Shown here piece by piece: positions 6,925 to 62,989 of a DNA stretch of 64,000 nt (position 1 is its first letter; each line of letters begins with the position of its first letter). The stretch spans positions 23,834,398-23,898,397 of the forward strand of contig NC_092577.1 of NCBI RefSeq assembly GCF_037975245.1. Reading direction: 5' to 3'. This stretch comes from Apostichopus japonicus. Lineage: Eukaryota > Echinodermata > Holothuroidea > Aspidochirotida > Stichopodidae. Under the pieces are notes generated by a model. The model saw nothing but the letters and a program-made list of their open reading frames with translations. It had not been told where the DNA came from and searched no databases. The translations under genes were made by a program, and so were the position numbers.

Positions 6925-9505
6925 CAACCCTTTACCACGCAATGTGTAATGGCCTGGTAGAGCGTTATAATGGAACACTCAAAAATATGATAAGAAAAAT
7001 GTGCGAAGAATGTCCAAAACACTCGGATAGATACATCAACCCACTGCTATTTGCCTGTCGTGAAACTACTCATCCCAGTACAGGGTTTTCTCCATTTGAA
7101 ATGCTATTTGGGCGGACTGTTAGGGAGGGGGCCTGTGGTCATACTAAAAGAATTGTGGACAGGAAAGAGTGAGGACATCGAAATTACCAGTATGTTATGG
7201 ACTTGCAACAAAAGCTAGAGAAAACGTGTGAACTAGCTAAACAGGAAATCAAGAAAGTAAAGTTCATAAATAAAATCCAATACAATAAAACCGCTAGGAA
7301 TAGGGAGTTTAAAGTAGGGGATATGAGGTATTACCCACGGACACAAGTAAAATACTCATGCAATGGAAGGGACCATATAAGATTAGGGAGAAACTAAATC
7401 GCATGAACTACCGGGTAGATTTAGGGAATAGAGTGCAAACATTTCATGCAAACCCTCCTTAAGAGATATTATCGGAGAAATGAGGACATCAAACCACTAC
7501 AAAAGAGCAAAACAAATGAGGCATTTGAGGTTGTAACACTAGCATTGTTACCGATAGAAGCTAAAGATGAGTCAATAGGTGAACCCAATGGCGATGAAAT
7601 ATTGCATTTACCACCTGTAGTACCAAATGAGGGCATAACAGATGTTAACATTAATGTGCAACTAGATTGGGAAAAATGTTTGTTTCAGTTATAACACATG
7701 AGGGACTTTACCAATTCGAAACTATGCCTTTTGGCTTAGTTAATGCTGCGGCAACATTTAGCCGAATTATGAGGAAATTACTCCAAGGCTTAAGTGGAGT
7801 CCACAACTACATAGACGACATATTAATTCACTGGCCAACATGAGAAGAACATAAGAGAAAATTATTGGAAGTATTGAAACGCTTACGGAAAGCAAACCTA
7901 ACTGCAAAACCCAGCAAATAATTCATAGGTTATGATGAGATTGAATTTCTGGCCCACCTTATTGGCAGAGGACTTGTTAAACCACAGCCAGATAAGATAG
8001 AGGCTGTGGGACGAGCACTCAGGCCCAAAACCAAAAAGGAGTTACGATCTTTTTTAGGACTTGTTGGGTATTACAGAGAGTTCATACCCGATTTTGCGGC
8101 GATTGCATGTCCTTTGACCGACTGTATAAAGAAGGGAGCACCTAATACAATGATATGGGGGGGGGGGAGCCAACAAAGATCTTTCGGAACATTAAAAGGT
8201 TCACTGATTAAATCCCCAATATTACATTTGCCTAACTTGGAAAAAATATTTATACTCCGGAGCGATGCATCAGACACTAGAATTGGGTCAGTGTTATTGC
8301 AAGTAGAGGGAGAAGAAACATTCCCTTTGGCATTTGCCAGTAAGAAATTAAATAAAGCACAAAAGGGCTATTCGGTAACAGAAAAGGAGTGCGTGGGTAT
8401 AGTGTGGGCCGTTCAAAAATTTTAACCATACCTTTTTGGTAGAGAATTCATAATTAAGACTGATCACCAACCACTCGCTTGTCTCAAAAGAAATCCCAAG
8501 ATGGGCACTTGTTCTACAGCCATATAGGTACAAAATAGAAGTCATTAGAGGAAGGGATAATGTAGCAGCGGATTATATGAGTCGTACTGATAATGAGTTA
8601 AGGAAAGGTTAAGTTGGAAGAAAAGTAAAGGAAAACGTCAGTTGCAAATTGACGATATGACACATTATTTATTGGATGGAAAGGAAATGGGTATAGTGAA
8701 ATGTGTAAATAGGAAGGGAGAAAAAGGTGATGTTTCGTGGATGAAAGTGAAACTTCCTAATTTAACAAAAGTAATTTTATTAATTTAGTATAAAGAAAAA
8801 TGTGAACATTTTTCTTGTTAAGAGGGGAGGTGTTGTGATGGTTCAAATGACACGTGTAGGGTTATTTCCACTGGTCATAGACTAATTAGCATAATATGCA
8901 AGGTGTTTGTAGCGTATCCAACAGTAAATGCCAAACCGTATTATTACGGAACGAGGCGCGCTTAATAAAACAAAAGGTCTCTTACAAAGGATGAATATTT
9001 GAAACACATGCCCCTAATTGCAAGCATTGCTTCCAGGTGGAATGGGCAAATGGAATGGAACACTTGGTTTAGAAACTTCACTTCTCTCTGAGCATCTAGG
9101 CAGAGCAGACGGCGGTTTTAGGCGTTAGTAAATAGTATATATGTCGTGGAGACAGGCCTAGGGTATATATTACCGGGAGAGGCTTCATTGTCTGGGTATA
9201 CGGTATACTTGTATTGATATCCGATTGAGAGTACCCTTCACCGACCAAATGGAGACACCTGCCCCATGCCGTGACTCAGAGGCTGTCTAAACCTTTTCAT
9301 TATACCATTTCCTGGAAGACGAAAATCAGTTCTCCGTTTTGTTGATAGCTTGTTTAATTGAGAAAGGAGGGCAACGGGACGGAAGATCCGTGCGTAGCAA
9401 CCAACGTTGAGGCCCTCCCTCCGTTTGTAGTGTGTATTGGACGGTAACATGATATGGTTATACACGAAGAAAACGGTATTTAAAAGAGATATTGAATAAC
9501 GCCAA
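6925..9505 (+). mobile_element. Broken Ty3/Gypsy element, Gmr1-like gene order
   Basis: Parts seen in order: C-terminal half of an integrase (about 6925-7650, with NGLVERYNGTLKNMIRKMC and the THPSTGFSPFEMLFGR block), then reverse transcriptase (about 7690-8100, with the FETMPFGLVNA and YIDD motifs), the connection SFLGLVGYYREFIPDFA, and RNase H (about 8150-8600). A purine-rich tract at 8820-8830 precedes a candidate 3' LTR from 8831. Integrase before reverse transcriptase is unusual for Gypsy and is the known order of the deuterostome Gmr1 group. The front of the element and its 5' LTR are missing and the coding part carries several breaks, so it is a fossil of moderate age. The right end is tentative. 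Confidence 0.85.
8831..9505 (+). repeat. Candidate 3' LTR of the Gypsy element
   Basis: It starts TGTTGTGATGG directly after the purine tract AGAGGGGAGG and contains AATAAA near 8966, a plausible polyadenylation signal. The end is placed at a CA near 9505, six bases before the TTAA of the next element. With no 5' LTR in the window, the end cannot be verified. Confidence 0.45.
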
Positions 9506-10102
9506 ATAAGTTAAAGGTCAAGCGACACGTATACTTGACTTTACATAATATTAAACTTAACAATTCTTACATTAACAAAAACCCAACACCGCGATTTTTT
9601 TCCGTCTCCAAAGGGGTAGAAATCGGTAAAAAGTACTATTACGTAATAGATTCAGTGACGTCACGGGGGAGCGCAGAAGAGTGCAAACTGTATATGTTCT
9701 GCGCAGTGCATTGGGTATGTAGAAATCTCAAACTTCTCGAAAATATTACCTTTTTCAGCAGTCTGTTACAAGAAAGATTTGGATTAACATGAAAAATCAC
9801 AAATTAATACATAAGACATCAAACAAAACATCCATTGACTTCTTTTTTCATAAATTTCTAGCATTTTCTTCCTATGAAGCAACATAAACTCCGCAAATAT
9901 CGGCTACATTGACTCGTTCAGGGAAAGCCGAAAACAAATTACGTCATTTCTTTACCAAGTCGAAAGTTATTACTTATTGCTACCACATACAGTTTCTATA
10001 CACGCACTGTAGTACGCATATATACACAGCACAGCATAGCTTATACATAGCTTATACATTGACACACAGTATTTAGATAGCAACGGCGAAGTAGTAAGGG
10101 AA

Positions 10103-11752
10103 ATGGAGGACATGGTGGACGATCGTGGGGAAGTTTTTCCCTACATGTTCGAACCGGAGACCAGCGAAGAGGAAGCGGGACCGGACAGCGATGTCTAAAT
10201 CGTTCGTCTTGACGGAATACAAAGGTAACATTACGCCTAGCGCACTATACTGTACATAGGATAGTTGTGTCACTAGTTAGGCCTAGAACCGATAAATGTT
10301 TCCTAACTTTGCTGATACTCTTAGCTAGCCAATTTGTTGATGGGGCAGCAAAATTAACATGAAAGTGCGGTCCAGTTAAGTTAAGGAAGTTACTATTTTC
10401 CTTAAAAGTTGTGGCAGCACATGCCCCACAGACATATTTCATTTGGTTAGTAGATTGAAGGAGCCAATTGGAAGAGTGCACAACAAATTCAGAGGTGGCT
10501 ATTATTAATTTCCTAGCAGTTGTAGTGGCAAATTAGTGAAGTTACCACAAGGGTGGGGGAGGGAGGAGGTGGCACCTCACACCAGCTTTTTGTCATTTCC
10601 GATTGAGCTAATTTCATAACCAGATTTTCTCAATCTAGGGAATGGATTCAGAAGTGGGAAAGAGTTGAAAACGAGGCAACATCGGCCTGTTTTATTCTCC
10701 TTTGCAGCATTGTCCCAACAGAGGCAAGACTTCTAAGAAGAGGCTACCCCTTCCTTACTAGTGATGTTACTTGTAAGGAGCTTGAACGGTAGATTGCCCT
10801 TCAGAGGTGCCCCTTTTCTATTTTGACATGTTAGTACAGTATGCCCCAATAAATGAGGTCGGTATGAAGTCATTGAATTGGCTCTTTATTATTTGAACTG
10901 GTTTGTATTGTTTACAGGTGTCATTGTGGCCAGTGTGCTGTGATGCCTACAGCAAGGGAATGTAGATGCTGCAGCGAAATAGATAAGTAAGGACTGTGAT
11001 GGATGAAGAAGGTGCTGCATGCATCACCTTACACCCAGGTTTTTGAAGCTATGGTGCCTGAACCCATTGTTTCTTCAGACAGCCTACTACATGTACCGTC
11101 AACAGTATGGTGGACGTGCACAGGAAAACAGGATCCAAGAGTAAGTATAGAATACATTATCTTTGTTGTATACCTTTATTCATTGCTCTGACCTGCTGTT
11201 GAAAGATGTAACAATACAGAGGGTGTATTCTTAGTTTAGTTTCGTTATGAAAGGAATAACATTAAGATATAGATTTGATCAAGAAAATTTGTGCCCCATG
11301 TTCAAAACCTAATTCTGATTAGGTCATTTTGTCGAAAAACTGGTGTAATGCCCTTGAGGTTAACCCTTATCATGCTGACTGACATAGTAGTCATTAACAT
11401 TGAGCCATGGAACCAAATGCCACACAAAAAATGTCCACCATGCTTGTGCACGGTCCATTTACAAATTTTAGTCCCCGAGATACAATGATCAGTTTGTATA
11501 TATGGCATAGCTAGGCTACCAAGATGGCATAGATGGCTACCAAGCTTTTGTGTGTCTTCATCTTTTATAGCTGGTTTTCATATGATTATTTTACAGGAAA
11601 TACAGACACACAGCATACAGACAGCTTGCACGGATGAGCTAGCAGTTTTTAGGGAAGGAGATTTGTGTTGTTCTCCCAGCCTATGCAGTAAGGAGGATTA
11701 GAGAAGCTTTACCATCTCAACAGTATGAAGGATTTAAATTATCAAGACTGTG
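10103..11752 (+). pseudogene. P2X7-type 'ballast' zinc-domain gene, decayed
   Basis: Exon-like pieces match the cytosolic C-terminal domain of the P2X7 receptor, known also as a stand-alone family in invertebrates. An ATG at 10103 opens MEDMVDDRGEVFPYMFEPE, the usual PYMFEP start. After an acceptor, 10918-10986 gives CHCGQCAVMPTARECRCC, the zinc-binding cysteine core, with a GTAAGG donor. The next pieces give EGAACITLHPGF (about 11006-11043) and TAYYMYRQQYGGRAQENRIQ (about 11080-11140, donor GTAAGT). From 11598, KYRHTAYRQLARM is followed by FLGKEICVVLPAYAVRRIRE and stops near 11752. There is a TAG where the family has tryptophan (about 11641) and a frame break after HPGF. The exon between 10192 and 10918 was not found. 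No channel-forming P2X part is present. Confidence 0.7.
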
Positions 11753-12606
11753 AGAATGTGGATTGTTTATGCCAAGTCATAGTATCATTTCTGCAAAGTT
11801 TTATAGAAACAGGGTTCAGTCCTGTCTGTTTTGTGGCTGAATGGTGAACACTTTGGAATTCCAGCTTACATTTTTCTGGTTCATGGTATTACCTACAATC
11901 TTGGATGAAATTTTACATTTTCAAGTTTGGGAAGTACAGTACATAACAGTAATAGATAATAAAAACTCAAGTTAATTTTTTGTATGTATTCTCTCTTTGA
12001 GCAAAGCTGTCACTTGTAGTAGCCTGCCAACAGAATCTGGTTGATTGAAATCTCAAATATACCAGGGTTAAAATAGAAGAATAGTTTGAATAAAGTACCC
12101 TAAACCACTATGTCAATGGGATCTGGAGAGCTTAGGCTTTCATTTTAATAAAAGTGTAATGAGAATCAATCTGAAATTGTTCATTAATCCATGGAATATC
12201 AAGGTTACTTGATCATAAATGGGATAAAACCAAAAAATCACATTTTATCCCATGCGGGGAACAAACAGCAAATTTCTGTCAATTCTTTTCCAGAAAAAAA
12301 AAAAATTGGCAACATGTTTGAAACACCAAAGTTACATACAAATAGTAAGTCAGCATGAAATTTATATTTATGAAGTCTAAGCTCTCTAGAGAGGAATACT
12401 TATCATTGGAACTTTTTGTAAATATAATGTTATCATTTAGTTACTTTAATGTAAAACTTAAGCAACTTCCCTAAGGCTGGTAGCGACCTGTTAATTAACA
12501 CTGCTCTGCAGCTGTGCCATACACCATGTGAACAGACGATTCACAGAGTCGATTGCTCCCCACTACAATGAAACAAGATTAGAAATTGGGAGGCCATCAA
12601 CTACAG

Positions 12607-15085
12607 TACTTCAGCAAAGCTTTTGAAATCTGCTTCGGTGTTGTTTTATGGCATCATTGTTCGGATGAACATAGGAGCTTGCAAGTGGTGGGGGCTCTTT
12701 TCTGACAGGAACATGACGCTCCTCTCCCAGAGTTCCACTTCTGCAGAAGTTGTTGCAAGCAGTCAAGAAGTTCCCATACATAATCTGTAGAATAGTAAAG
12801 ATATGAAGAATAATATAATAATAGTTCATAAAAACATACCATTTAGATAGAGGCATTCCAATCACTCCATTTAGGTCAATAGGCATGGCACAGTTGTCAG
12901 TCAAGTCTTTGGATGCCCAACTAAGGCGACAGCTGAGTACACCTCAATTGGTGTGGATACATGGGTCAGGTTTTACCTGACAACTTGTGCCTGAACAATT
13001 TCAATATATTTGTTACTGATTACAACAAAAACCCTACACCTGTTTGTGCACCTAATATTATGGATTATGTAATCTTCAGCAGGATGTGTGGTCATTGTCT
13101 CAGTAGCTTAACCACTGTTTATGTAGTAAAGTAAACATGTGGACAGAGTAACATCCTGTCCCATCCCCTTGTAATCCATGGTAAAAGAGTGTATAAGATG
13201 CAACTTGCACCATTTGTATTCAGTAGCAGATATCCAGCCAAGTGAAGATATAATATACTCTGTTAAATCCAACTACTTGTTTGTGCCTTTATTTCTTGTT
13301 CACATACAGCTGTGACAACTCTACCAGATACAGTATGTATATGCTAATTGAAGTAAAGACTGATGGCCTCCACCACACATTCCAGACTGCCCCACAGTGT
13401 TGGTGTCAAAATTAATAATGATCCTCTTTCCAGAAAGTTATGGCACCAATTGATTTTCCAGACTAATCTACTATCAATCTTCAAAATTACCTCGAAGCGT
13501 CATCTTTGTCATGTTCAGATGAGTAACTGATGGAGTGTAGTCCGGACTACCTGGCGGTTTTTCGGTGTATCCCGATGTGGATGCCACAGCAGCAGACGGA
13601 CCATCATCGCCACTATCAGATGGCCCTGGTTGCTTTGATGGTGTTCTTGTCTCTGTTGGTCCAGTTAGCAACTTCAATGATGGTAGGGGGACCAGTGAAC
13701 ACTGGACTTCTACATGTGTTACATTCACTGAAAATTAGAATAAACGCTTATTATACCACACACATACAGTAGGCTGCTCATGGACAGGGGTCAGCTGCCT
13801 AGATGGTTCACTTATCTTCTCTGAAGGAGAGCATATCCTCCTGCTTTATGTGGCTGCAAAAATATGGGCCACTCACACCATGAGCATTATTGCAAATGAC
13901 CAGCTTGGTTTCATATTGTATAACTACAATGTAATCTCCCTTCTCTCAGTAACTATAGATGTAGCCTTTATATTTTCCTGTGAAGCCATCAGGTATAGCC
14001 TCCTCAACCACGCGGATATGATGGATAAAATGCAATGTATATTATCCCTTAGTCAGCCTGCCCGATGTGCAGTTTTAATTGCTATTTTGCTTTCAACGAG
14101 TACTGTTTCTAAAATTTTGGCCCCTGTACTCACTTCTGCTATAGAATACTCTATAGATGTATGAAAGTTTTGCATTCTTCCTTGTATTACCCTGGCTTAC
14201 ACTTCTCTACCACATTTTCTCCCCCACCCCCCACTCTCCATCCATCACTCTATTAAAGCCTATTTATGGGGACCTTTCGGCCGTAATACTGCTGCCTCCT
14301 TTTTGTCTGGTAGCTTGCCCCCCATATACATGCCTCGATGTTTTACTGGTGGAGATTCCTTGTATCCCGTTCAAAACTGACTACTTAAATCTTTAATGCC
14401 CGTCACCACCCTCCCCTTCCCCCATTTCCCAACTGTTTTTCGGTAATATCAAGCACATGTCTATAAGATCATGCTACCTTTAGATGGAGATGTACATTCT
14501 GCAGAATCCTGCCATTATTTTCACTGCAGTTGCTTGGGGAACAGCTTCTAGATTAATCTAAGTATTGAAAATTGGGAAAGAAAATAACAAGGAAGTTATG
14601 AAAGTTCATTTAAGAAAGCAGTTTGATATGTTTGAAAGTACCTGTCACAAGCGTTTTCTCTTGTAACAAAAATGGCAAAATATAAGGATGTCATTTACTG
14701 TGAAACATATGAGCTATACATCTGATTGCTTGTTATTCTGGATTTTTCATGATGTACCACAGATAAAAGTTAATATATCCCTAGTCTACGCATAACTTTA
14801 TCGTCGCCGTACCTAATTTAGGGCCTAACTAACTGAACGAAATTATAAGAATTAGCCTACTGTAAGTTAGTAATAATACCAAGTTAGTCCTTGTTGTAGT
14901 AGGCCTAGGCCAGAAAATACACTTACTCTTTTCCGATCCAGCTTCGCAACTACCGGTCTACTTGTTTCTATATCTCCTCGAGATTTGAAGATACTTTCTC
15001 CAAATAGAGAAGGAACGGCATTGTCTTGTAGACGGCGAGCTGTTGGTGTTCCAAGTCCAAGTTGCGCGGATAGGCGATAGGAATC
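12607..15085 (-). pseudogene. Possible THAP-like gene exons inside the TTAA element
   Basis: Three exon-like pieces lie on the minus strand. The first (about 15085-14937) reads SYRLSAQLGLGTPTARRLQD then NAVPSLFG, resembling the C-terminal AVPT/SIF end of a THAP zinc domain, and ends at a good GTAAGT donor. The cysteine part that should precede it was not found, and a stop lies just upstream in frame. The second (13727-13491) is a Pro/Ser/Thr-rich linker with an acceptor and a GTAATT donor. The third (about 12790-12607) has GEERHVPVRKEPPPLASSYV then HPNN, with amino-acid use that looks coding. The frames of the three are not all compatible, so exons are missing or the gene is dead. THAP proteins bind DNA and are fused to several transposases; the assignment here is tentative. 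Confidence 0.35.
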
Positions 15086-15515
15086 GAAACTTTAACTAGT
15101 GAAGGGCGCACTGCACACATAAGATTCGCTCGAAGGTTCCAGCCAATCTTTACTTATAGGCAGCTAGGCTGGCTGAGTGCACTGGTACTAAGCTATCGCT
15201 GTATACAGTGTTTGACGAACACGAAACTTTCTTGTACTGTTGTGCACCCATTCTCATCTGATATTTTGTTTACTGTTCGTGACGTATTGTTTACGGCTTT
15301 GATCTCGGTTAGCATATTAGGCATACTTAGTTTTGGTAACATTGGCGGTTCCCCCGTGACTTCATTATCTTACGGAATTAGCTTGATTATTAACTTAATT
15401 AAAACAGCAAAGAAACAATTGTGGAACTCCAAATTTGGAATATAGTGTTTTGATATGTACCTTTTAAATTTGTGTAAATTTGAAGGAAATCTGTTACGTT
15501 TCACTTGACCTTTAA

Positions 15516-17290
15516 CAAGGGAATTGTCGCGGAGAGAAAAAACCGACTTCCTTAGTTAAAAGGAACATTTTCTGTTGATTAAAAGAAGGGCATTAATAAA
15601 CGTTAAGATTATGTTATGTAAAAGACAGTTAATTGTAGCGTACAATAATAAAGTTTCCTTATTTATAAGCATACTGTTACATTTCATTTCTTCATAAGTG
15701 TTAAAGGAACCCGAGTGGGAATTTATTATTTCAATTTCTCACGCTAATAAATTGCCGTTGCAATGGAATTAAAGAGACGTGGCGGGAATAGAAGGGAGTC
15801 CGTCCCCGGTCACAGTTTCTCGACATTGACTTCGCTGTTGAAACTATACGACTGGAACAGGGGCGAAATGAGCTCTAAGTTTTGTATCATATATTACCTT
15901 CAGGGCTTTACCACCCCTCCCCCCTCAAAATGGGGATGTTTGCACCCATTAAACCCTCAGCAGATTCCCCTCCCCGTTTCAGATTCATACTGAAATGACT
16001 GCCACATTTGTTAGATGCTCTCAATTTAAACATATCTATTCATCATTTACGTTAGTTAGACAAGAGATAATTGGTCCCAATTAAAGTCAAACTTAAAAAG
16101 ACTAATTGAGACGGAATAGATTGTGATAGTTCTCTTTATTTAAGTAAATACAAAGACTATCCAAAGAAAAACACATTTCATTTGGATCCGTGAATGACCA
16201 GGGAATCTTCTTACATAAAATATAGCATTGAGGAATAAAAAATAAAACTCTTTAAGTGTTAGCACACATTTTCATGAACCTAAATGTAATGACGGATCCC
16301 TTGCGTACGGAGTATTTGCTTGTTTATGGTATGTATCGGCTTTCCATGAAATATCTACGAGACTGCAATATTTTGTGACTGCGTCAAAAGTAGGTACAAA
16401 ATATGCAAAGAAGAAACAGCAAATGTCATCTGGATTAGTAATTGATTGGGAAACCTTGTGAACTCATTTAAACTACCATTTACACTGCGAAGTTGATGGC
16501 CATTATGTACATATCAACATACACATACAATATAAGTTAATGATAATGTGTATTGTGACATTATTAAGCTATACGTTTAAGAGCTACTTTATATGTCGCG
16601 CACCAACATCATTACTGTTTCGTGCATAGCCTGTATGTTCAAGGATCGGCCTCTTGCGATCTGGCCTTCCGAGTGTTAACCTCTCAATACATTTCTGTAA
16701 TTCTTTATAGAAGTATTTCTGTCTTTATTTGGACATTGAACAACATATTACCTGGTCGGTAACATCACATGTATCGCCTTCGAGATCCTATGTATGAACA
16801 TATGTGACATTAATGATGATAACACATTGACAAACTAAAACCTACCGGACAGATATACATATTTTGTTCCAACTTTGAATACGAAATATAAAAGCAGTTT
16901 TTAAAGTTGTTGGCGAAATTTGAAAATCGAAGATATTGATATATGCCGAAGAAATGGGGTGGGTTGGCAGTGTAGAGCAGGTTGACTTAGAAAATACTTA
17001 TCTTAATACGACAATAATTCAAAAATGAATTCTTCTTCGCAGCTGGAACATCACAAAAAATAAGCCTGCTGCTTCCTTCAGTAATACCGTCTCTATATTA
17101 TATAAGTTACAAAATTTCATTTTCTTTCTACAATGTTATGAACAAGACATAAACGCCGTTTGAATTGGTTATCTTATATGTAACTACCATTCATATTAGG
17201 TAATTCATATAATTGAGATCGCGTGTAGTAACTAAATGCAATTGTGAGATATAGAATAAAGTAATAGTTCAAATATGCTAACCAGTGCTG
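15516..17290. other. Non-coding stretch, no gene seen
   Basis: Only short frames occur (for example 15763-15993), with no motif, splice pattern or repeat that I can name. Confidence 0.5.
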
Positions 17291-46480: not shown

Positions 46481-49459
46481 ATGAATATGGCCAGTATGGG
46501 TTACTTTCCTGTACCACAAGAACTTTTGCATGACTGCATCAGGAAAACGCTTGAGAAGGTACCGGTCAACATTTCCTTCGAACAGTTATTGCCAGAACAG
46601 ATAAGATGTATTGAAAACGTGGTAAATGGTAAAGATACCTTTCTTATGCTGCCTACTGGTTCAGGGAAAACACTGCCATTCCAGATTGTTTCAAGTGTTG
46701 TGAAGGAACTGAGGCAACATGACAAGGCCTATCAACAGCACTTCCCATCTCAACCTATCGTCATTGTTGTGAGCCCACTGCTTAGCCTGATGCGATCCCA
46801 TGTGCAGCAAGTCTCAATTCCCCAGAGGATGAGAGGATCAAACTGGGACATTTTGAGGTTGTTTTAGGATCTCCAGAGTCATGGCTCAACTCGACAACTT
46901 GGAGAGAGGTCCTGCTTACTCCAGAGTTTCAACAACGGATCATTTGCTTGGTGACTGATGAGGTCCATTGTGTGCCAAAATGGTGAGTCTAAATGGGCGT
47001 GATTCATACTTAATATCCAGTGGGGGGGGGGGGGGAAAGATTAGGAGAGAAGACCGGTATGATAGTAAATGTACATTTGGTACAAGATCTTGCGGCAGCT
47101 TTTGTAAGTTTGTACATCGGATATTGTGTGACCAATAGATCCTGATGTCAGTCTGTATTTTGACAGAGAAACTGCGAGTATCACCCCCTCGACCCACTGC
47201 AATTCAGTTTCTGCTTGATACTCAATAAACCCCTCTCCGGTATGGGTTATTCTATGTCAACTCCACAAATTTCCTGCAAATCATGGCTGGGTGATGTCAG
47301 GAGCAGATTTCCCTCTGAACCGATGGAAAAAAAAGGCACAAATTCCAAACGGTTTTCGAGTTTATATGGTTATTTAAAAATTGCTACTGACCCCCAGATA
47401 TGCACTTGAAGAATACACAGCAGTAAATTTTTCCATTTTCAGGACATGATAGTTTCAGTTAGCTCAGAGATACAGCACTAAAACAACCTCCTCTGGTCAA
47501 ATCTTGGCCATATTTTGCAAAACTGTCATCAAAAAGTGGGTGACTATTTTCTTCTTGAACATAGAGGGTGCCAAACATTGCATTTTATTCTTCACGTCAG
47601 TGTCAGTGATGTTTCATTTTTAGACTCCCCTAGTTTGAAGAGTTTGTATGTAAAAGGAGTCATGTTGCAGTTTAATACTCATATGAATGGACTTACCAGC
47701 CATAGCACATCATAAAATTTTACATGGACTCAAATTACATACATGTCTCTAGAAAGGTATTATTGATGGCAGTTGTCTGCAAACAAAGCTAAGCATACTT
47801 GCAATTTTCACATGTTTGCCATCCAAAATTTGTGGGGAGGAGGGCCACAAAATGGTGAATGTTCTGACAACCCTGCCCCTTCATGTACAGTACCTCCCTA
47901 CCCTAAATGCAGAGTACAGTAGTACAGTATATATTTCCAGTCGACGTTGACTATTTACCATTTTCAATAAGGAAATTTTCTCAGGCTAAACAGTGATGTT
48001 AAAATACTGTGGAGTAGTTGGGTAGCATGTTGAATATATACTGCATCCGATATTGCTGTGATGTCGTCTCATTAGCAAATGGCAGATTATATACTGTACT
48101 ATGTGAACTGAGAAATCACAACCATGGCTGTCTGACATGGATAATGGAACAATATTAAAAAAAGGCATCATTTCCCCTATTCATTCTCTTGCAGGGGGCT
48201 TCAGGGCCGTAAGAAGGCTGAGGCTGTTTTCCGGGAGACATTTGGCCGCCTTGGAGAACTGAGGACCTTACTTCCAGAGGGAACCCCTATATTGGCCATG
48301 ACAGCGACAGCAACCAAGAAGTCAAGGAGAATGATATACCATTCATTATGTCTACGTTCTCCTGAGGAATTTGACATTCTTTCTGTCAATTCGAAAGATC
48401 CCAACCGTGGCAATCATAGATGGGGAGAAGGTGAAACTTGAACCGAGTGAACAGTTTGATCATGTCTTCAAACCTTTGGTGGAAGACATAGTGACGAAGA
48501 AGCGAGGTAGTGACTTGACAATAATTTATTGTCGAACAGTTAAGGAGTGTGGTGAGGTATACGAGTATTTCTCCCGTGAGCTAGGCAGTGAGGGTTATAG
48601 TTTTGAAGGTGCTGCTAGGATTAGTGCAAACCGACTTTTTGCAATGTTCCACCACTCAACTCCAGATGAAATCAAGAATGATGTCCTAAAATCACTTATT
48701 GATGATGGACACTACAGGCTGATCATTGCTACAAATGCATTGGGGATGGGCATCAACGCACGTCATGTGAGGAGAGTGTTCAATGTTGGCATACCAGAAG
48801 ACATTGAAGCCTACATCCAGGAGATTGGCCGAGCTGGAAGAGATGGACAGCGATCACATGTCATTCTCTTCTATAAGTCTTTTCATCTTCTGCAAGCTGA
48901 TGAGACGATGAAATCCTACGCCAGAAATACATCTATTTGCCCTAGGGCATTGCTAATGAAGCAGTTTCAGGCCCTGAAAGAGACTGAACCTCATCATGAC
49001 TGTTGTGATCTATGTGAGGCAAAGTGCAAGTGCAGTGTCTGGGAAACAACGAGCCGAGTTGACAGTATTGCTGTATCGAATGAGTCACAAAAGGTCACAT
49101 CTCCTGTACTCATCCGTGTGGCTACGTCCGAGGATGAGAAACTGCTCCGATGTGCCCTACTTGAATACAGAGATTGTCTACTCCGATGCAGTGCAAATTA
49201 CAATTCGGTGGGATCAGGATTCTCCACCCAGCTGATCGATCAGGTCGTACAGCATTTGCCATTCATATCTGGATCAGATTACATTCAGCAGCATTTGTGT
49301 TCATTTAGTGAAAGCCATGCCATAGCAATTTTCAGCATTATCCATGAGCTTGACGTTGGATCAGATGATGATCAGTCCGTATTTCCAGAACTGAGTGAGA
49401 TCCTGGATGATAGAGTTAATATGGCTGATTTCAGCTTATCTGACCTTGAGGATGACTAG
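46481..49459 (+). pseudogene. RecQ-type DNA helicase, two exons, two frame breaks
   Basis: An ATG at 46481 opens a superfamily 2 helicase of the RecQ type, which unwinds DNA 3'-5' with ATP. Exon 1 (46481-46982) has LLPEQ (motif 0), FLMLPTGSGKT (Walker A, residues ~54-64), VVSPLLSLM, then in another frame GHFEVVLGSPESW and TDEVHCVPKW (DEVH instead of DEAH). Exon 2 (48195-49459) has AMTATAT, IIYCRTVKEC, IIATNALGMGI and the RecQ motif VI QEIGRAGRDG, followed by a zinc-site-like CCDLCEAKCKC and an acidic end, SDLEDD. The frame changes near 46805-46830, where some 20 residues expected between motif Ia and the next block seem lost, and again near 48415-48430. The intron has a good GTGAGT donor and TTGCAG acceptor. 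It is either a decayed copy or a copy with assembly errors. Confidence 0.8.
46983..48194 (+). other. Intron of the RecQ-type gene
   Basis: The 1.2-kb intron has no recognisable gene. It contains a run of G at 47023-47034. Confidence 0.6.
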
Positions 49460-53222: not shown

Positions 53223-56200
53223 TCACTCACTGCTGGCCCTTAGGGTGATGGACTGGTCTTTGCTCCAGAGTTTCTTGTAATGTTGTATCCAACGGTGGAA
53301 TGCACGCACATCCAATTGATGCAAAATGTCGCGACTGAAATCGGGAAAAGCAGTGAATGATCTGCCCGAGTTGGGGGTGAAGATGTCAGCCTCATCAAAC
53401 ACTTGCGTGAGGAGTGTTTGGAAATCCTCCATGCAGTATGTTGATTTGTGGTAACCTTTTGGCTTTGACAAAGACAAATCATTTTCAATATTGGTAATGA
53501 GCTTTTCAACCTTTCCAATGGCATAACCAGCTCTTTGTGCTAGTGTCTCTGATATGTTCATTGCTCCCTGGGCTTTCAGAGCTTGTTTGGCAACCTTATT
53601 GATGTGCTCCAACCGAAGGTCCCTAGACATGTGCCTCCCTTTGCCACCTCGATTAGTTACAGTTCTGTTCCATATCAGTTCATGAGAGAGGTCCCCGGGC
53701 AGTAGACTATAAATGTCTGCTTGAAGTCTCAGTGCTGCTAGTGCATATTTGTTGTGCTTGTGCAACTTGAATAGAGGCATCAAGAATTTCCAAACTTGAA
53801 TTATTCGGGCCCCATCTCCTTCTCTAACTGCATCATCTGCATTACGCAGGAGAAGACCGAGACCGATTGTTGCACATCCATAGTTGGATTTGTGATCCTC
53901 CTCTTCTTGGCGTTGACTTTCTTCAGTGTGTTGGTCTGCTCTCCCGTGCACATGACTTTCATGGCTCCTCCGAGTTGCTTCAAGTTGCAGCACCTTTGTG
54001 CACCCATCTGCCCTGCAAAGGAATGACTCAACTCTTTCCAACCTTTTAAAACTAGGCAGCATAGCAAAATTCTCAACTAGCTCTAAACACTTCTGGTGCA
54101 GCCACTTCCGTTGCTCTTGTGGCGTACCATTCTTCACCTCTTCTGGAACTACTTTTTCATTGATGGAGTCCATCTTCCAATGGCTCAAAGTCGCAGCTGT
54201 GTGTTGAAGAATTCTTTGACTTCAGCATAGAACTGCAGTGCATCCTTCTTTGCATTCGAATTATTCACACAGTTGGCATTAGCGAAAAATGTTCCTTTGT
54301 CGACTGATGATGCCGGGCTGCGTAAAATTTTGATGACAACCTGTGAAATAAGACAGTGATATTGTGAATTGTCGGGAACAAGATTGCATGTTGACCTTCA
54401 TCAATGCCTATAACTATTGTGGTGAAAGGACATATATAATAAACATTAGATTGGCTCTCATCTCTATTTCCTTGACATGATGCTGGTCCATCACGAGGTA
54501 TTACAGCGTTATACTGTATGTCGCTATTAATTTGAAACAGTCGCCAATTTCTTTTGACAAAACTGCAGTATAGGGCCCGCCATAAAATGTGTGCACCAGG
54601 CCATTCACAGGCTTAGTGAGGCCCTGTCTGTCAGCATCAGAAAATAAACCATTGTATATTGAAGTACAATAGGTGCAGCAATTTTACCAACCTGGAAAGC
54701 TATCCTGAAAGCATGCCAGTCCTCCAATTTGGGAACAAGTCCAGACAATTTCTGCAGGGTAGTGTCACCGTCGGCTCGAGCCCTCTGGGCACTGCGACAC
54801 CGTTCATCAGTCAGTTGGTCACCTCCAAAGAACAGCTGCAAGTTAAGAGAGAATTATTAAATTACAGAAATTCCCAGGATGATGAAACTGGAATAGATCA
54901 GATTTTCTCCATGCCATCACAACCAAGTCACACAAGATGGACACTCCACTACTGAGGAAGGTGTACTCATTGCTCCAGACATTGAGATGAGTAACATGTT
55001 TTCTTGTTTGTCTGTCCACTGCGTTGTCATGGTTAACAGAATGCATTTCATTGTTGCCAGTTACCTTCTTAGTGGCTTCATCATCATCTAGGCAAGGAAG
55101 GTACTTGTTGTGGATTTCTTCTAAGATGGCTATCATCTCTTCAGACTTGTTTTCATTTCGACAAATGATGCTCAGTGGAACCTGTAGGTAAAGATGGTTT
55201 AAATAAGTAATTTCCTTGACATTATAGAGGAGCATGTTATTGACCAACATACAAAATTGTTCATTGCCACTGAATTTCATTGTTGTGTACTTGGGGCAAT
55301 TGCCTAGTTGCTTCACAGACCATCATAATAATCATAAAAGAATACATCCATTGCACAGGATAGATCCCCTGTCTCCCCCATTACATTCTGTTACCACATT
55401 TACAAGGATTAATTAATTACCTGTTCAGAAGGTTGCTGCATCTGTTCAGAATATGGATGGGGGATGTGCCACACAGCAGCTGTCCTCAGTGATTCCAGAT
55501 CAGGTATAGAGTTCACAATAACTCGTGACCAGAGGAAGGCAAAATCGGTTTGCAGCAGTGTGTTATCTTCAGGGGTTGGTAAGAAGGTGGACTCTGGAAT
55601 GTCATTCAGGTTTGTGGCCTCAGTTGTGGCATACTCTCGTCCACTTACAGCATCCTTTACTGCATACATGTTGAACCAGTGAATTGACTGGTTCTGGCGA
55701 ATTGAAGACATATGCTTTGCCCTGATTTCAAGGTCAATATTGTCCCCAATTATTTGGTACTTGTCTGGAGTGAGCTTCATAATTTCTGACTTGATGACCT
55801 CCGCTGCACTGTCAACAGCATGTCCCTCCCGAACAAGGGAACAGACTCTCCTCCATGTCATCAAATGTGGACTCACAGAAGCTAGTTGATAGTGAGTCTT
55901 TCGCAGCTCTGAAGAGGATAGTATCAACAGTTGGTTCCATGTTCACTGAAATATCAGCAGGTGAAAGTTCATAATTGAAATTTTTACCGCTGATGTCATG
56001 TCTTGAAACAGCCTCCTCCAAAGCTGAAGCCATGGCTTTCATCTTGCTGTGAGTGATCAGTTCATCTTTCCAATTCTGCACGGACTCATCATGACCCTTC
56101 CCGAGCTCGGTAAGGAACAGCTGTATCCGCCGGGCTGACACAGTGACATGTTGTTTGTTCATGATGGTAATAGCCTGAAACAGGAAGAAACAACATCATC

Positions 56201-58999: not shown

Positions 59000-60945
59000 T
59001 CACATCGGTTGCACAGATAACCTGCCAACTGGCATATTTCCCCCTAAAAACCACATCACATCTATTCCGCCAAACATGTTTTTTTCACAATAGAGCAAAC
59101 CGAAATAATGCGGTGCAACACAGCAACCGAACAAACTGGAGGGTCTACCCCATATAAAATAAAGCCCTGTCCTACCGACCATGAGCGGTCTCCCGTAACA
59201 CGGTCGGTCCAGGTCTGGAACCACTCCCATAAGTTTACTACAAAGCAACAATGCCAAAAAACATGAGCTGTACTCTCTAAGCTGTCACAGCCGGTCCTTG
59301 GGCACAGTCCATCACCCAATCGCCAATGATATTTTTTGAGGTTGGTCACCAAGGCGCCGTGTGCAATTCTCCGTGCAAGATCACGGAGCCTGCAACCATT
59401 CAGCCTTTAATGCACCGAACGCCATACTTCGGCAGAATGACGTCCCTGGACAAAAATTGCATTGAAGGCCCTATCCCGCAACGAACTGTGAACGAGGGCC
59501 GGCTGTGACAGGTCAACAGGGGGCAACTCAATCAGAGCGGAGCAAATGACACGCACCACCCTGTTTGAAGTACTACTATGCGGTTCTTTGTTGCTAAACA
59601 GCGCCGGGACCCATCGACGCAGGTGCAAACGGCCCAAAAACGTACACAATATGAACAAGGCAACCCTGGGTCAGTTACCAATACAAAGGATTGCTTAAAT
59701 CACAAAAGAGTAAATTTATTCCCCAGATGAACCACCCCTAGCCCCCCCCCCCCTTTTCCAGTTTTTGGTACATTACCGCCCTCTTGACAAGCTCTGTACC
59801 ACCCGACCAAATAAATGAAAATATCGCTCTCTCCAACCGCACCAGGACGCGACGCGGAATGGAATACACCGCGCCCGGGTACCACAAGATGGGCGAAACA
59901 AAACGATTAATTACGGTGACTTTCCCTAGGATCGAAAGCCAGCGGGTGCCAAAGGTTTCCAGCCTGCTCTCAAGTACCTCAGCCCTCTCGTTCCAGGTTA
60001 CATCACAAGGTGCATCGCAGCCGAACCATATACCATTAAATTTGATATTTTGATCCGACCACGATGCACCGAATGGTAAGTCTCTGTATCTCCAGCTACC
60101 AAGGCGAAGGCCCTTTGTCTTTTCCGGATTCAACTTCGCCCCGGTAGCTCTCTCAAAGATAGATAATTCCTGCGAGAGGGCACGAAATGAGCCCAGACTC
60201 GAAACAACACACGTGACGTCATCTGCATATTGAACGCATTTCACTTTGGCACCCCCTGGCACAACGAACGGAACAAGTCTTCAGTCCCTTTCCAAAAGAC
60301 GAGAGAGGGACTCGCTAAACAAAACATAAAGTAATGGAGACAGAGGGCACCCCTGGCGCACCCCCTCTCCACGCTGAAAACCTCCGAACAAAACCCATTT
60401 ACGATAACAGAACTAAAACTTTCCTCATACAATACAGAAATCCATTTACGAAAATCCGGGTGCAACTGAAACGTCTCCAATACATTCATTAAAAACCCAC
60501 GATCCTTCTGCTGGTCCAGAGACACCAATGCACATGACAGATCTCGTTCAAAAACAAAGTCAGTCCAGTCGCGCATCAACCACAAGTTCTGCTGGATGCA
60601 AAGACCCTTCACTGCACAAGTCTGGAGATCACCCACAAGATGCGGCATAGCCAGTGCGAGGCGGTTGCACAAAGCCTTAGCCAGCAACTTGTAGTCTACA
60701 TTTAACAAGGTGATCGGACGCTTGTTATGAGGATCCAAGGGGTCCCAGACTTGGGCAGCAAAGTAATCATGCCCAGACGTTGACTTTGGTTCATCAGTCC
60801 ATATCATTGGCATCGTGGGGAACAGTTTTTGAGATTCCCCTCAATAAATCGGCCTGTGCCGACAAGTCCACATTGCCACGCGTAAGCAAACTCGAATAAA
60901 AATCCTTGTACATATTTCCTACAGTACGATTAACTACGTGACATT
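59000..60945 (-). mobile_element. L1/Tx1-like LINE, 5'-truncated, broken ORF2
   Basis: Reading leftward from about 60945: MYKDFYSSLLTRGNVDLSAQ, then RPITLLNVDYKLLAKALCNR (RT), ALVSLDQQKDRGFL, a GFCSEVFSVERGCARGALC motif B block, and the catalytic region VQYADDVTCVVSSLGS. The C-terminal part (about 59650-59020) contains the zinc-type block CPRTGCDSLESTAHVFWHC. These features place it in the L1/Tx1 group. The RT is split into two frames with a break near 60245-60300, and the C-terminal part is also in separate frames. The endonuclease part is missing, as in typical 5' truncation. Confidence 0.85.
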
Positions 60946-61857
60946 GGCTCTACTGTTACTGGAGCGGAATTCCCAGCTTGTTTGATGTTTAAAATCCATT
61001 CACACTCCTCTTTACCATAATAAATGGAACAATAACCGCCCCCCCCCCACCCTGCCCATACCTTTTAAATTGACACTCATGAAAACAATAAACGTGTACA
61101 ACTTTTTCACGTGTGCCAAGTTTATCTGTCCCCGTAAACATTCTACACCACAACATTCCCCTTATCGCAACCTTCACTTGAGACATTCAAGACTATTCGA
61201 GACTGCATCGCTTTGTTGATGGTTGCCTACACATATTCAAGACGTCGTTGAATTTTGGAAGCGGTCCAATCTTCTGAACGCAGTGAAGGAGTTAGCTAAA
61301 CGAATAGACGTCAGACAACTTAAAGGGACATGCCTTCGATCAGCTCTGGCGCTATCCACGGATAATTTCTCCTCCATTTCTCTTTGTCTTGTTTCGAGAG
61401 GCGTCGTAATTTGGAATTCTCGTCCTCGATAACCGACTTCCCAAAATCAATGAATAGAAGTAGAGAAGCCTTCTGATGGACTCCGCGCTCGGATAATCAC
61501 TCACACGCACAACTCCGCACATTTTACTATAGTTTTGGACAACATAGTGCACTGAGCAGCAAAGAGTGAGAGTGGTTCGTAAAGTTATTTCAAAACGATA
61601 CTATACTTTGTTTGATTCAAATAAATTACATTTTCGGCCTAGATAAGAGATTTTTGGCCTATGATTCAACCATAACTTAACATGCTGCTAACGAAGGCAA
61701 TGTCTTTCTTAAGATTGGTAAAACGAATTTAGGCCAACTGTAAAAACCGGACGCCAAGCTGGAGGTTTCAGTGTTACGTTGGAATGCGAGAGGTCTCGAT
61801 AACTAATTTTGAACGAGACACAAGCCTGGGTTCGTTTCCGTAAGGAACACAGACAAA
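60946..61857. other. Non-coding stretch, no gene seen
   Basis: Short frames only, without recognisable motifs. Confidence 0.4.
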
Positions 61858-62436
61858 TTGACGAGTCTAGAGATTTTAAATGAGAACGTAAACTATATTG
61901 AACAATGGAGTCTGAACCAAGAACAACAAACGGTAAATACAAATATACAGAAAATTACTCACAAACTGAACAAGATAGGATACACTTTAAAACACGCTGG
62001 TCTCTTCCAACGGCGATATCCCTCAGCCGGCACGACCTCGATGACGACGATTCTCGGTCCGTTGTACCGCGAAATTCACTGGTCCTCGACGAAGTTTCTC
62101 GCGATCCCAGAAACAGCAGTCACCTTCTTTCCGGCGATGCTCCAAAATAGAAGACGGACTTCCAGCCACAATCGAGTGAAGCACAAGTCGAACTTCTCGC
62201 CGACTAAATATTACCAGAGTCAGTCCAAAATTAGCTTTATAGCCACCAACTCCTGGCGTAATGAACTGCCTCAACGGAGACAGAAATTCTTCACCTTCTC
62301 CGAAATACAGACTGGAAAACTGTACTTTCACAGCAAAGTCCTCCTCAAACTTCTGAATGGAATTGTAGAATCAATCTTGTTATCGATATCTCAATCCTTC
62401 AGAAAGTACTGGCAGTTGAGCACTGACGATATATAG
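61858..62436 (+). CDS. Uncharacterised open frame of 192 codons
   Basis: The frame from the ATG at 61858 is the longest otherwise unexplained one in this part (MTSLEILNENVNYIEQWSLN at the start, KYWQLSTDDI at the end). It is basic and polar, with no signal peptide, membrane span or domain that I know. The minus strand also has an open frame of 102 codons over 62023-62331, so the openness may reflect base composition alone. It may be noncoding. Confidence 0.15.
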   Translation: MTSLEILNENVNYIEQWSLNQEQQTVNTNIQKITHKLNKIGYTLKHAGLFQRRYPSAGTTSMTTILGPLYREIHWSSTKFLAIPETAVTFFPAMLQNRRRTSSHNRVKHKSNFSPTKYYQSQSKISFIATNSWRNELPQRRQKFFTFSEIQTGKLYFHSKVLLKLLNGIVESILLSISQSFRKYWQLSTDDI

Positions 62437-62989
62437 TACAATGGTATAATATGTGTCGTCGCTTGTATTCGTACAGAAACTGGGAAGTCCTTTGCATATC
62501 TCGCGTACGTTCCAGAGAATCCACGAAAATGTGTGCACACCGCAACGGGACTTCACGTAAACCGACGTTAACCTGAGACCAGCGCGTCATCATGAGGAAT
62601 ATACCAGAACAATCGTGTATTATAACATTGTGACACGGTAAACCGACCTAATTTCTCAAATACTGATTTATCACGTAGGCAATTTCAATTACTCTCCACA
62701 TTATAACATTAGGTTTCTCACTAGCAGTGACTAGCGTTAGGCTACAATGGGCCCTCGTAACATCAGTGCGATTCCCTGTGAGGTGAGAGTACTTTTCTCT
62801 TTTCCCAGATTATCCAACCAATTCCTTGAGAATGTTTAAAATGAATTGCTCGGAAAATCTGAAACCATGGAGAATGTTTTATTTAATAAATTGTGCAATT
62901 GATTAAACGAGGTTACCATCGCAGTGCTGACTGTAGTCTTCTTCCTTAAAAAATGATACAGCTCTCTTATTTTACTGATAAGGCGGTGT
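62437..62989. other. Non-coding stretch, no gene seen
   Basis: Nothing recognisable on either strand. Confidence 0.4.

Follow-up and report, generated by a model that had tools for sequence, protein, structure and literature searches.

A probable non-autonomous Kolobok-type element with a fossil KolX gene in Apostichopus japonicus

Introduction

The Kol0 families of Kolobok transposons encode two proteins, a transposase and KolX (Kojima and Bao 2022, PMC9587614). KolX is described there as resembling residues 476-595 of human P2X7 and as having the ballast fold, and P2X7 itself is reported to have originated when a P2X4-like gene fused with KolX. Within the literature searched, the term KolX occurs in that paper only. 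The ballast domain was described across animals by Rump et al. 2020 (PMC7016195), who thought that it had not expanded into large families; the string 'transpos' does not occur in their paper.

Here we analyze a window, a stretch of 64,000 nucleotides from Apostichopus japonicus (C17:23834398-23898397), against the genome of the same species (671.6 Mb in 35 contigs). A first-pass annotation of this window had proposed that a ballast domain travels with a Kolobok-like transposon and had taken the pairing to be undescribed, although it was already in print (Kojima and Bao 2022, PMC9587614). Because the pairing was published in 2022, what the window adds is a decayed, non-autonomous member. We consider it very probable that positions 9515-15511 are a non-autonomous Kolobok-type copy which carries a KolX fossil, descends from a KolX-bearing, Kol0-like element and has been moved in trans.

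Results

The borders proposed for the element are confirmed: TTAA stands at 9511-9514 and 15512-15515, inverted arms at 9510-9531 and 15495-15516 are 91% complementary over 22 nt, and a deeper inverted match pairs 9656-9670 with 15350-15364 (15 nt, 93%). The ends of the window copy read AGGTCAAGCGACACGTA and TACGTTTCACTTGACCT; the end pair of its family is AGGTCAAG...CTTGACCT, with AG...CT termini. The features are:

9515..15511, plus strand: most probably a non-autonomous Kolobok-type element, 5,997 bp, one of 20 paired copies (L017-L036)
9511..9514, no strand: left TTAA target-site copy, read directly; a single TTAA stands in 5 of 6 empty sites read
15512..15515, no strand: right TTAA target-site copy, read directly
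9515..9531, plus strand: left terminal inverted repeat, starting AG; agrees with the right end at 15 of 17 bases
15495..15511, minus strand: right terminal inverted repeat, pairing with 9515..9531
9656..9670, plus strand: left subterminal inverted repeat, containing TGACGTCA
15350..15364, minus strand: right subterminal inverted repeat, TGACTTCA in the window copy and TGACGTCA in the other 19 copies

When each 170-bp end was searched against the genome, at least 40 scored matches (114 and 111 candidates) were returned at 94-100% identity, and the 21-base end motif TTAAAGGTCAAGYGACACGTA has 140 exact matches against none for its reversed control. Twenty paired copies, including the window copy (L036), were chosen from the end-match lists, and 18 of them have TTAA on both sides; the exceptions are GAAG at the right of L021 and TCAA at the left of L033. 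Of the 140 places, 100 were listed, and these lie on C1-C16; inward-facing neighbors among them no more than 40 kb apart form 38 end pairs, half of which (19) span 6.05-6.25 kb. Long paired copies with AGGTCAAG ends are present too, for example at C4:22171422-22182687, C9:111819-124019 and C16:34333092-34344611. The ends are paired and recur far beyond chance, and the outcome that the first-pass annotation had named as fatal to its proposal, ends that never pair elsewhere, did not occur. The 19 non-window copies are 94.5-99.1% identical to one another and 93.9-97.2% identical to the window copy, and all 20 carry TGACGTCAC followed by a run of G at the left. The joined flanks of the 18 TTAA-bounded copies show no match among one another.

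The window copy is inserted inside another repeat, and its flanks, joined at one TTAA, have 23 genome matches. Eighteen, at 76-90% identity, cross the junction and lack the element, another two correspond to the halves of the window copy itself and three cover the right side only; in the six junction-crossing places that were read, a single GTTAA is present in five and GTTAG in one. A further empty site, for another copy of the family, lies in the window:

61834..62486, minus strand: related empty site for copy L022, 619 of 653 positions identical across the junction

This site, in a copy of a repeat within the same window, reads TTCA where L022 has TTAA twice. In addition, copies of a single repeat are interrupted at the same TTAA, in one case by copy L027 and in another by the 3.2-kb element of L045, a member of a second family. 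A host multi-exon gene or a segmental duplication could account for the multi-exon layout and the many copies, but the ends are constant and bordered by TTAA, the flanks are unrelated and empty sites exist. On account of the empty sites we regard this explanation as refuted, with practically no probability left to it.

The forward gene reported within the element, with a P2X7 cytosolic domain, is present as ballast exons but not as an intact gene, as a stop and a frame break are shared among the copies. Its parts are as follows:

10040..10198, plus strand: frame with a likely KolX upstream exon (PYMFEPE motif)
10919..11140 (end approximate), plus strand: KolX fossil, cysteine exon (CHCGQC) in a broken frame; profile E about 0.01
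11595..11750, plus strand: KolX fossil, last ballast exon with an in-frame TAG at 11640-11642; found by tblastn and profile

The last exon is 37-56% identical over 30-54 residues to the intact ballast proteins of the genome among the tblastn matches listed, with alignments that pass through the stop; the best E among the matches listed is 9.3e-8, and that of the window copy 4.9e-7. Over most copies, the identity of the fossil to the nearest intact ballast proteins, among those compared, is only about 40-46%. A profile built from five open ballast frames matches the last exon in at least 18 of the 20 copies (best E 1.7e-5, window copy 1.2e-4). The C-terminal domain of the KolX fossil is homologous to the ballast domain of P2X7. 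The frame at 10040..10198 has no Pfam match; its position and a similar motif in L044 and L045 make it a likely upstream exon of KolX. The TAG breaks the last exon in 19 of the 20 copies, the remaining copy reading TAT, and the two cysteine-exon motifs lie in different frames in all 15 copies (of 20) where both could be placed. As the stop and the frame break are common to the copies, we infer that the gene was already dead when the family began to spread. When positions are compared by eye, no fetched copy of the window family contains any of the 150 scored P2RX7_C matches.

Reverse exons of the element had been likened to a THAP protein, and one frame is concerned:

14867..15091, minus strand: reverse frame with an AVPSLF box (box start 15019), THAP identity unsupported

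This likeness is not supported: the frame has no Pfam match at E<=10 and offers the AVPSLF box only, and none of the 149 THAP matches in the genome lies inside the 38 paired copies, a count that covers C1-C16 and not C17-C23. Over the same pairs, with the same coverage, none of 46 transposase loci falls inside. Neither tblastn with one transposase nor a three-sequence profile run in six frames found transposase remains in the 20 copies. Copies L034 and L035, which are longer (8.1 kb and 6.8 kb), were tried as autonomous members and rejected, as neither method gave a transposase match. The search for copies by terminal segments returned the same ends with TTAA in 18 of 20; between window-family ends, no transposase was found in the fetched copies or the listed pairs. 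Because no DDE transposase of its own was found in the 20 copies, the family is filed as non-autonomous, by its ends and its KolX fossil.

Across the genome, a P2RX7_C search gave at least 150 matches above cut-off among 471 candidates. We compared the best 51 of the 150 listed ballast matches with 53 of 107 listed transposase rows, rows being omitted where their position suggested pieces of the same loci. A transposase lies within 20 kb of 34 of these 51 matches, in convergent orientation in 32 and not in two, where random placement predicts 0.15, a comparison to be read with the repeats not being independent. The other 17 have no listed transposase within 20 kb; two of them, L038 and L039, show weak transposase matches (E 3.5e-8 and 0.02). 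From the side of the transposases, 34 of 50 loci have one of 58 ballast matches within 12 kb and 16 have no listed one. A THAP match lies within 10 kb of seven of 46 transposase loci, six of which are 34-36% identical to the query and have no listed ballast match. The end sequence TTAAAGGGGCGTGG has 25 exact matches (control 2), and at 14 of these 25 ends a ballast exon lies 2.7-3.3 kb inward on the same strand, with 16 ballast matches tried. Ballast genes are associated with Kolobok-type transposases across the genome, and the second outcome that the annotation had set against itself, ballast genes unassociated with the ends of the element, likewise did not arise. Two inward-facing pairs of TTAAAGGGGCGTGG ends, about 16.7 kb apart, were seen at C16:19310234-19326905 and C16:19481523-19498215.

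Better-preserved relatives are present in this genome. L042 and L046 are 98.8% identical over 10.6 kb; both ends are bounded in L046 only (TTAA followed by AGGGGCGTGGTCGT at the left, ACGACCACGCCTCT followed by TTAA at the right, 10,703 bp between), the right end of L042 not being reached. The interior of L046, read from single frames and not from whole exon structures, holds an open P2RX7_C exon (E 2.3e-33), an upstream cysteine-rich frame and a convergent 548-aa frame. In this one element bounded at both ends, KolX and the DDE transposase point toward each other, KolX from the left end and the transposase from the right, a convergent order that is seen at many loci. In L042, too, an open 548-aa reverse frame, without a Pfam match, adjoins the ballast exon. 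The ballast exons of the intact relatives match P2RX7_C at about 1e-33, and the ballast frame of L042 matches the P2X7 structure 6u9v (E 2.2e-23). Upstream of the ballast exon, and on its strand, a frame rich in cysteines (GCPCK...C.CGT) is seen at L042:2516, L043:2732, L046:1008 (+) and L049:8407 (-); this frame is probably the first part of KolX.

In the transposases of L042, L047 and L049, residues D198, D265, D288-VW-H291 and E416 (L047 numbering) are invariant across the three sequences. We read the relatives L042, L046, L047 and L049 as having a putative DDE triad, the choice of residues being ours, with C/DxxH between the second D and the E. C365, H367 and H387 are also invariant in the three sequences, the full four-ligand set of a zinc finger not being assigned, and the transposase structure predicted from a 3-row alignment (mean pLDDT 34.9) was of too low a quality to be of use. 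The end of the L047 element, TTAAAGGTGGGATC, has 116 exact matches (control 2; e.g. C5:9998812, C9:27014236 and C15:10879198), so the L047 family has many other ends in the genome; the left end of the L047/L048 element was not found among 100 listed of these 116, and the element is therefore bounded on one side only. L044 and L045, 98.5% identical over 3.2 kb, represent a second TTAA family; they are two read from a large near-identical, low-scoring P2RX7_C set and have a ballast exon (E 2.1e-9) with one TGA each, and the profile found no transposase match in them.

These relatives bear on whether the ballast gene is cargo. A transposon without such a gene of its own could have picked up a host ballast gene by chance and multiplied it, as might be suggested by the failure to find a transposase in the fetched window-family copies and by the identity of only about 40-46%, over most copies, to the closest intact ballast proteins compared. 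However, the gene recurs in other TTAA families (at 14 of the 25 TTAAAGGGGCGTGG ends and in the 3.2-kb L044/L045 elements), and Kol0 Kolobok elements are published as encoding a ballast-type gene (PMC9587614). We give capture very little credence, and the ballast gene is better read as the Kolobok element's own second gene, KolX.

Membership of piggyBac is slightly less probable still. The TTAA target would suit it, but AG...CT termini are of the published Kolobok type, which is said to differ from that of piggyBac, the CHCGQC cysteine exon is kept whereas most of the conserved cysteines are said to be missing from the piggyBac proteins (PMC9587614), and the open transposases adjoining ballast genes carry the DxxH signature. 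The assignment to Kolobok rests on the ends, the target and the KolX fossil: the TTAA duplication is found in 18 of 20 copies, and the AG...CT termini fit the published Kolobok 5'-RR/YY-3' rule (PMC9587614). Kol0 is a provisional lineage name, given by gene content and not by phylogeny; KolX with a ballast fold is found in the relatives, and in the window family as a fossil only.

All 20 window-family copies have TGACGTCA about 140-160 bp inside the left end, and 19 of the 20 have it at the right end as well; the exception there is the window copy. In L044 and L045 it lies about 183-193 bp inside both ends, so that, of the three TTAA families examined, two have inverted TGACGTCA palindromes within both ends, at a depth of about 140-195 bp. 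In L046 it is present near the right end only, which counts against a general rule. If TGACGTCA has a role at all, one doubtful suggestion is that the pairs form a shared control or transposase-binding module, a CREB/ATF-type site over each of the two convergent gene starts, kept after the loss of the transposase; were this true, host signaling could switch KolX and the transposase together.

Elsewhere in the window, a long open frame at 48335-49459 (+) has a helicase C-terminal domain (E 5.8e-16), and a few kb away on the opposite strand another, at 53223-54221 (-), matches DUF6589 (E 9.1e-20); together they are possibly another mobile element. Reverse-transcriptase-related frames lie at 7922-8425 (+) and 60241-60840 (-), with an RNase H-like match (E 1e-25) and a weak RVT_1 match below cut-off, respectively.

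Discussion

We propose that a KolX-bearing, Kol0-like element gave rise to the window family when the transposase gene was lost; the family retains its terminal and subterminal repeats and the remains of KolX, whatever function KolX may have had. Its copies inserted into TTAA with a 4-bp duplication, a step shown here, and were probably mobilized in trans by the Kolobok transposase of another element. A ballast domain does travel with a Kolobok-like TTAA element, as the first-pass annotation had supposed, but a working partner protein in this family is unsupported, given that the copies share a fossil gene and that the searches of them revealed no trace of a transposase. As for the element in the window, it is a dead passenger.

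Beyond what has been published, the contribution is modest and consists of these families, their number within a single genome and the subterminal TGACGTCA pairs. Evidence from one genome, empty sites included, supports what has been published on the stand-alone P2X7 ballast genes of animals, namely that they are for the most part genes of transposons (KolX), which explains their multi-copy state. This view also warns against naming such sequences as 'P2X7-like' host genes.

Among described systems, the likeness to Kol0/KolX (PMC9587614) lies in the TTAA target, the 5'-RR ends, a DDE transposase with DxxH and a second protein homologous to the ballast domain, the proteins being those of relatives in this genome; the window family differs in that no transposase was found and KolX is present only as a fossil. 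The T2-MITEs and Kolobok elements of Xenopus (Hikosaka and Konishi 2018, PMC6004289) share the TTAA target and the terminal AG, and T2-MITEs are likewise non-autonomous and thought to be moved by Kolobok transposases. Xenopus Kolobok transposases are described as usually having a THAP domain, whereas THAP is not confirmed in the window family, which is also longer and carries a KolX fossil. The stand-alone animal genes for the P2X7 ballast (ZCD), including nanor (PMC7016195), resemble it in having the ballast cysteines outside P2X7; the account of those genes reports no large families, whereas the genome analyzed here has at least 150 matches.
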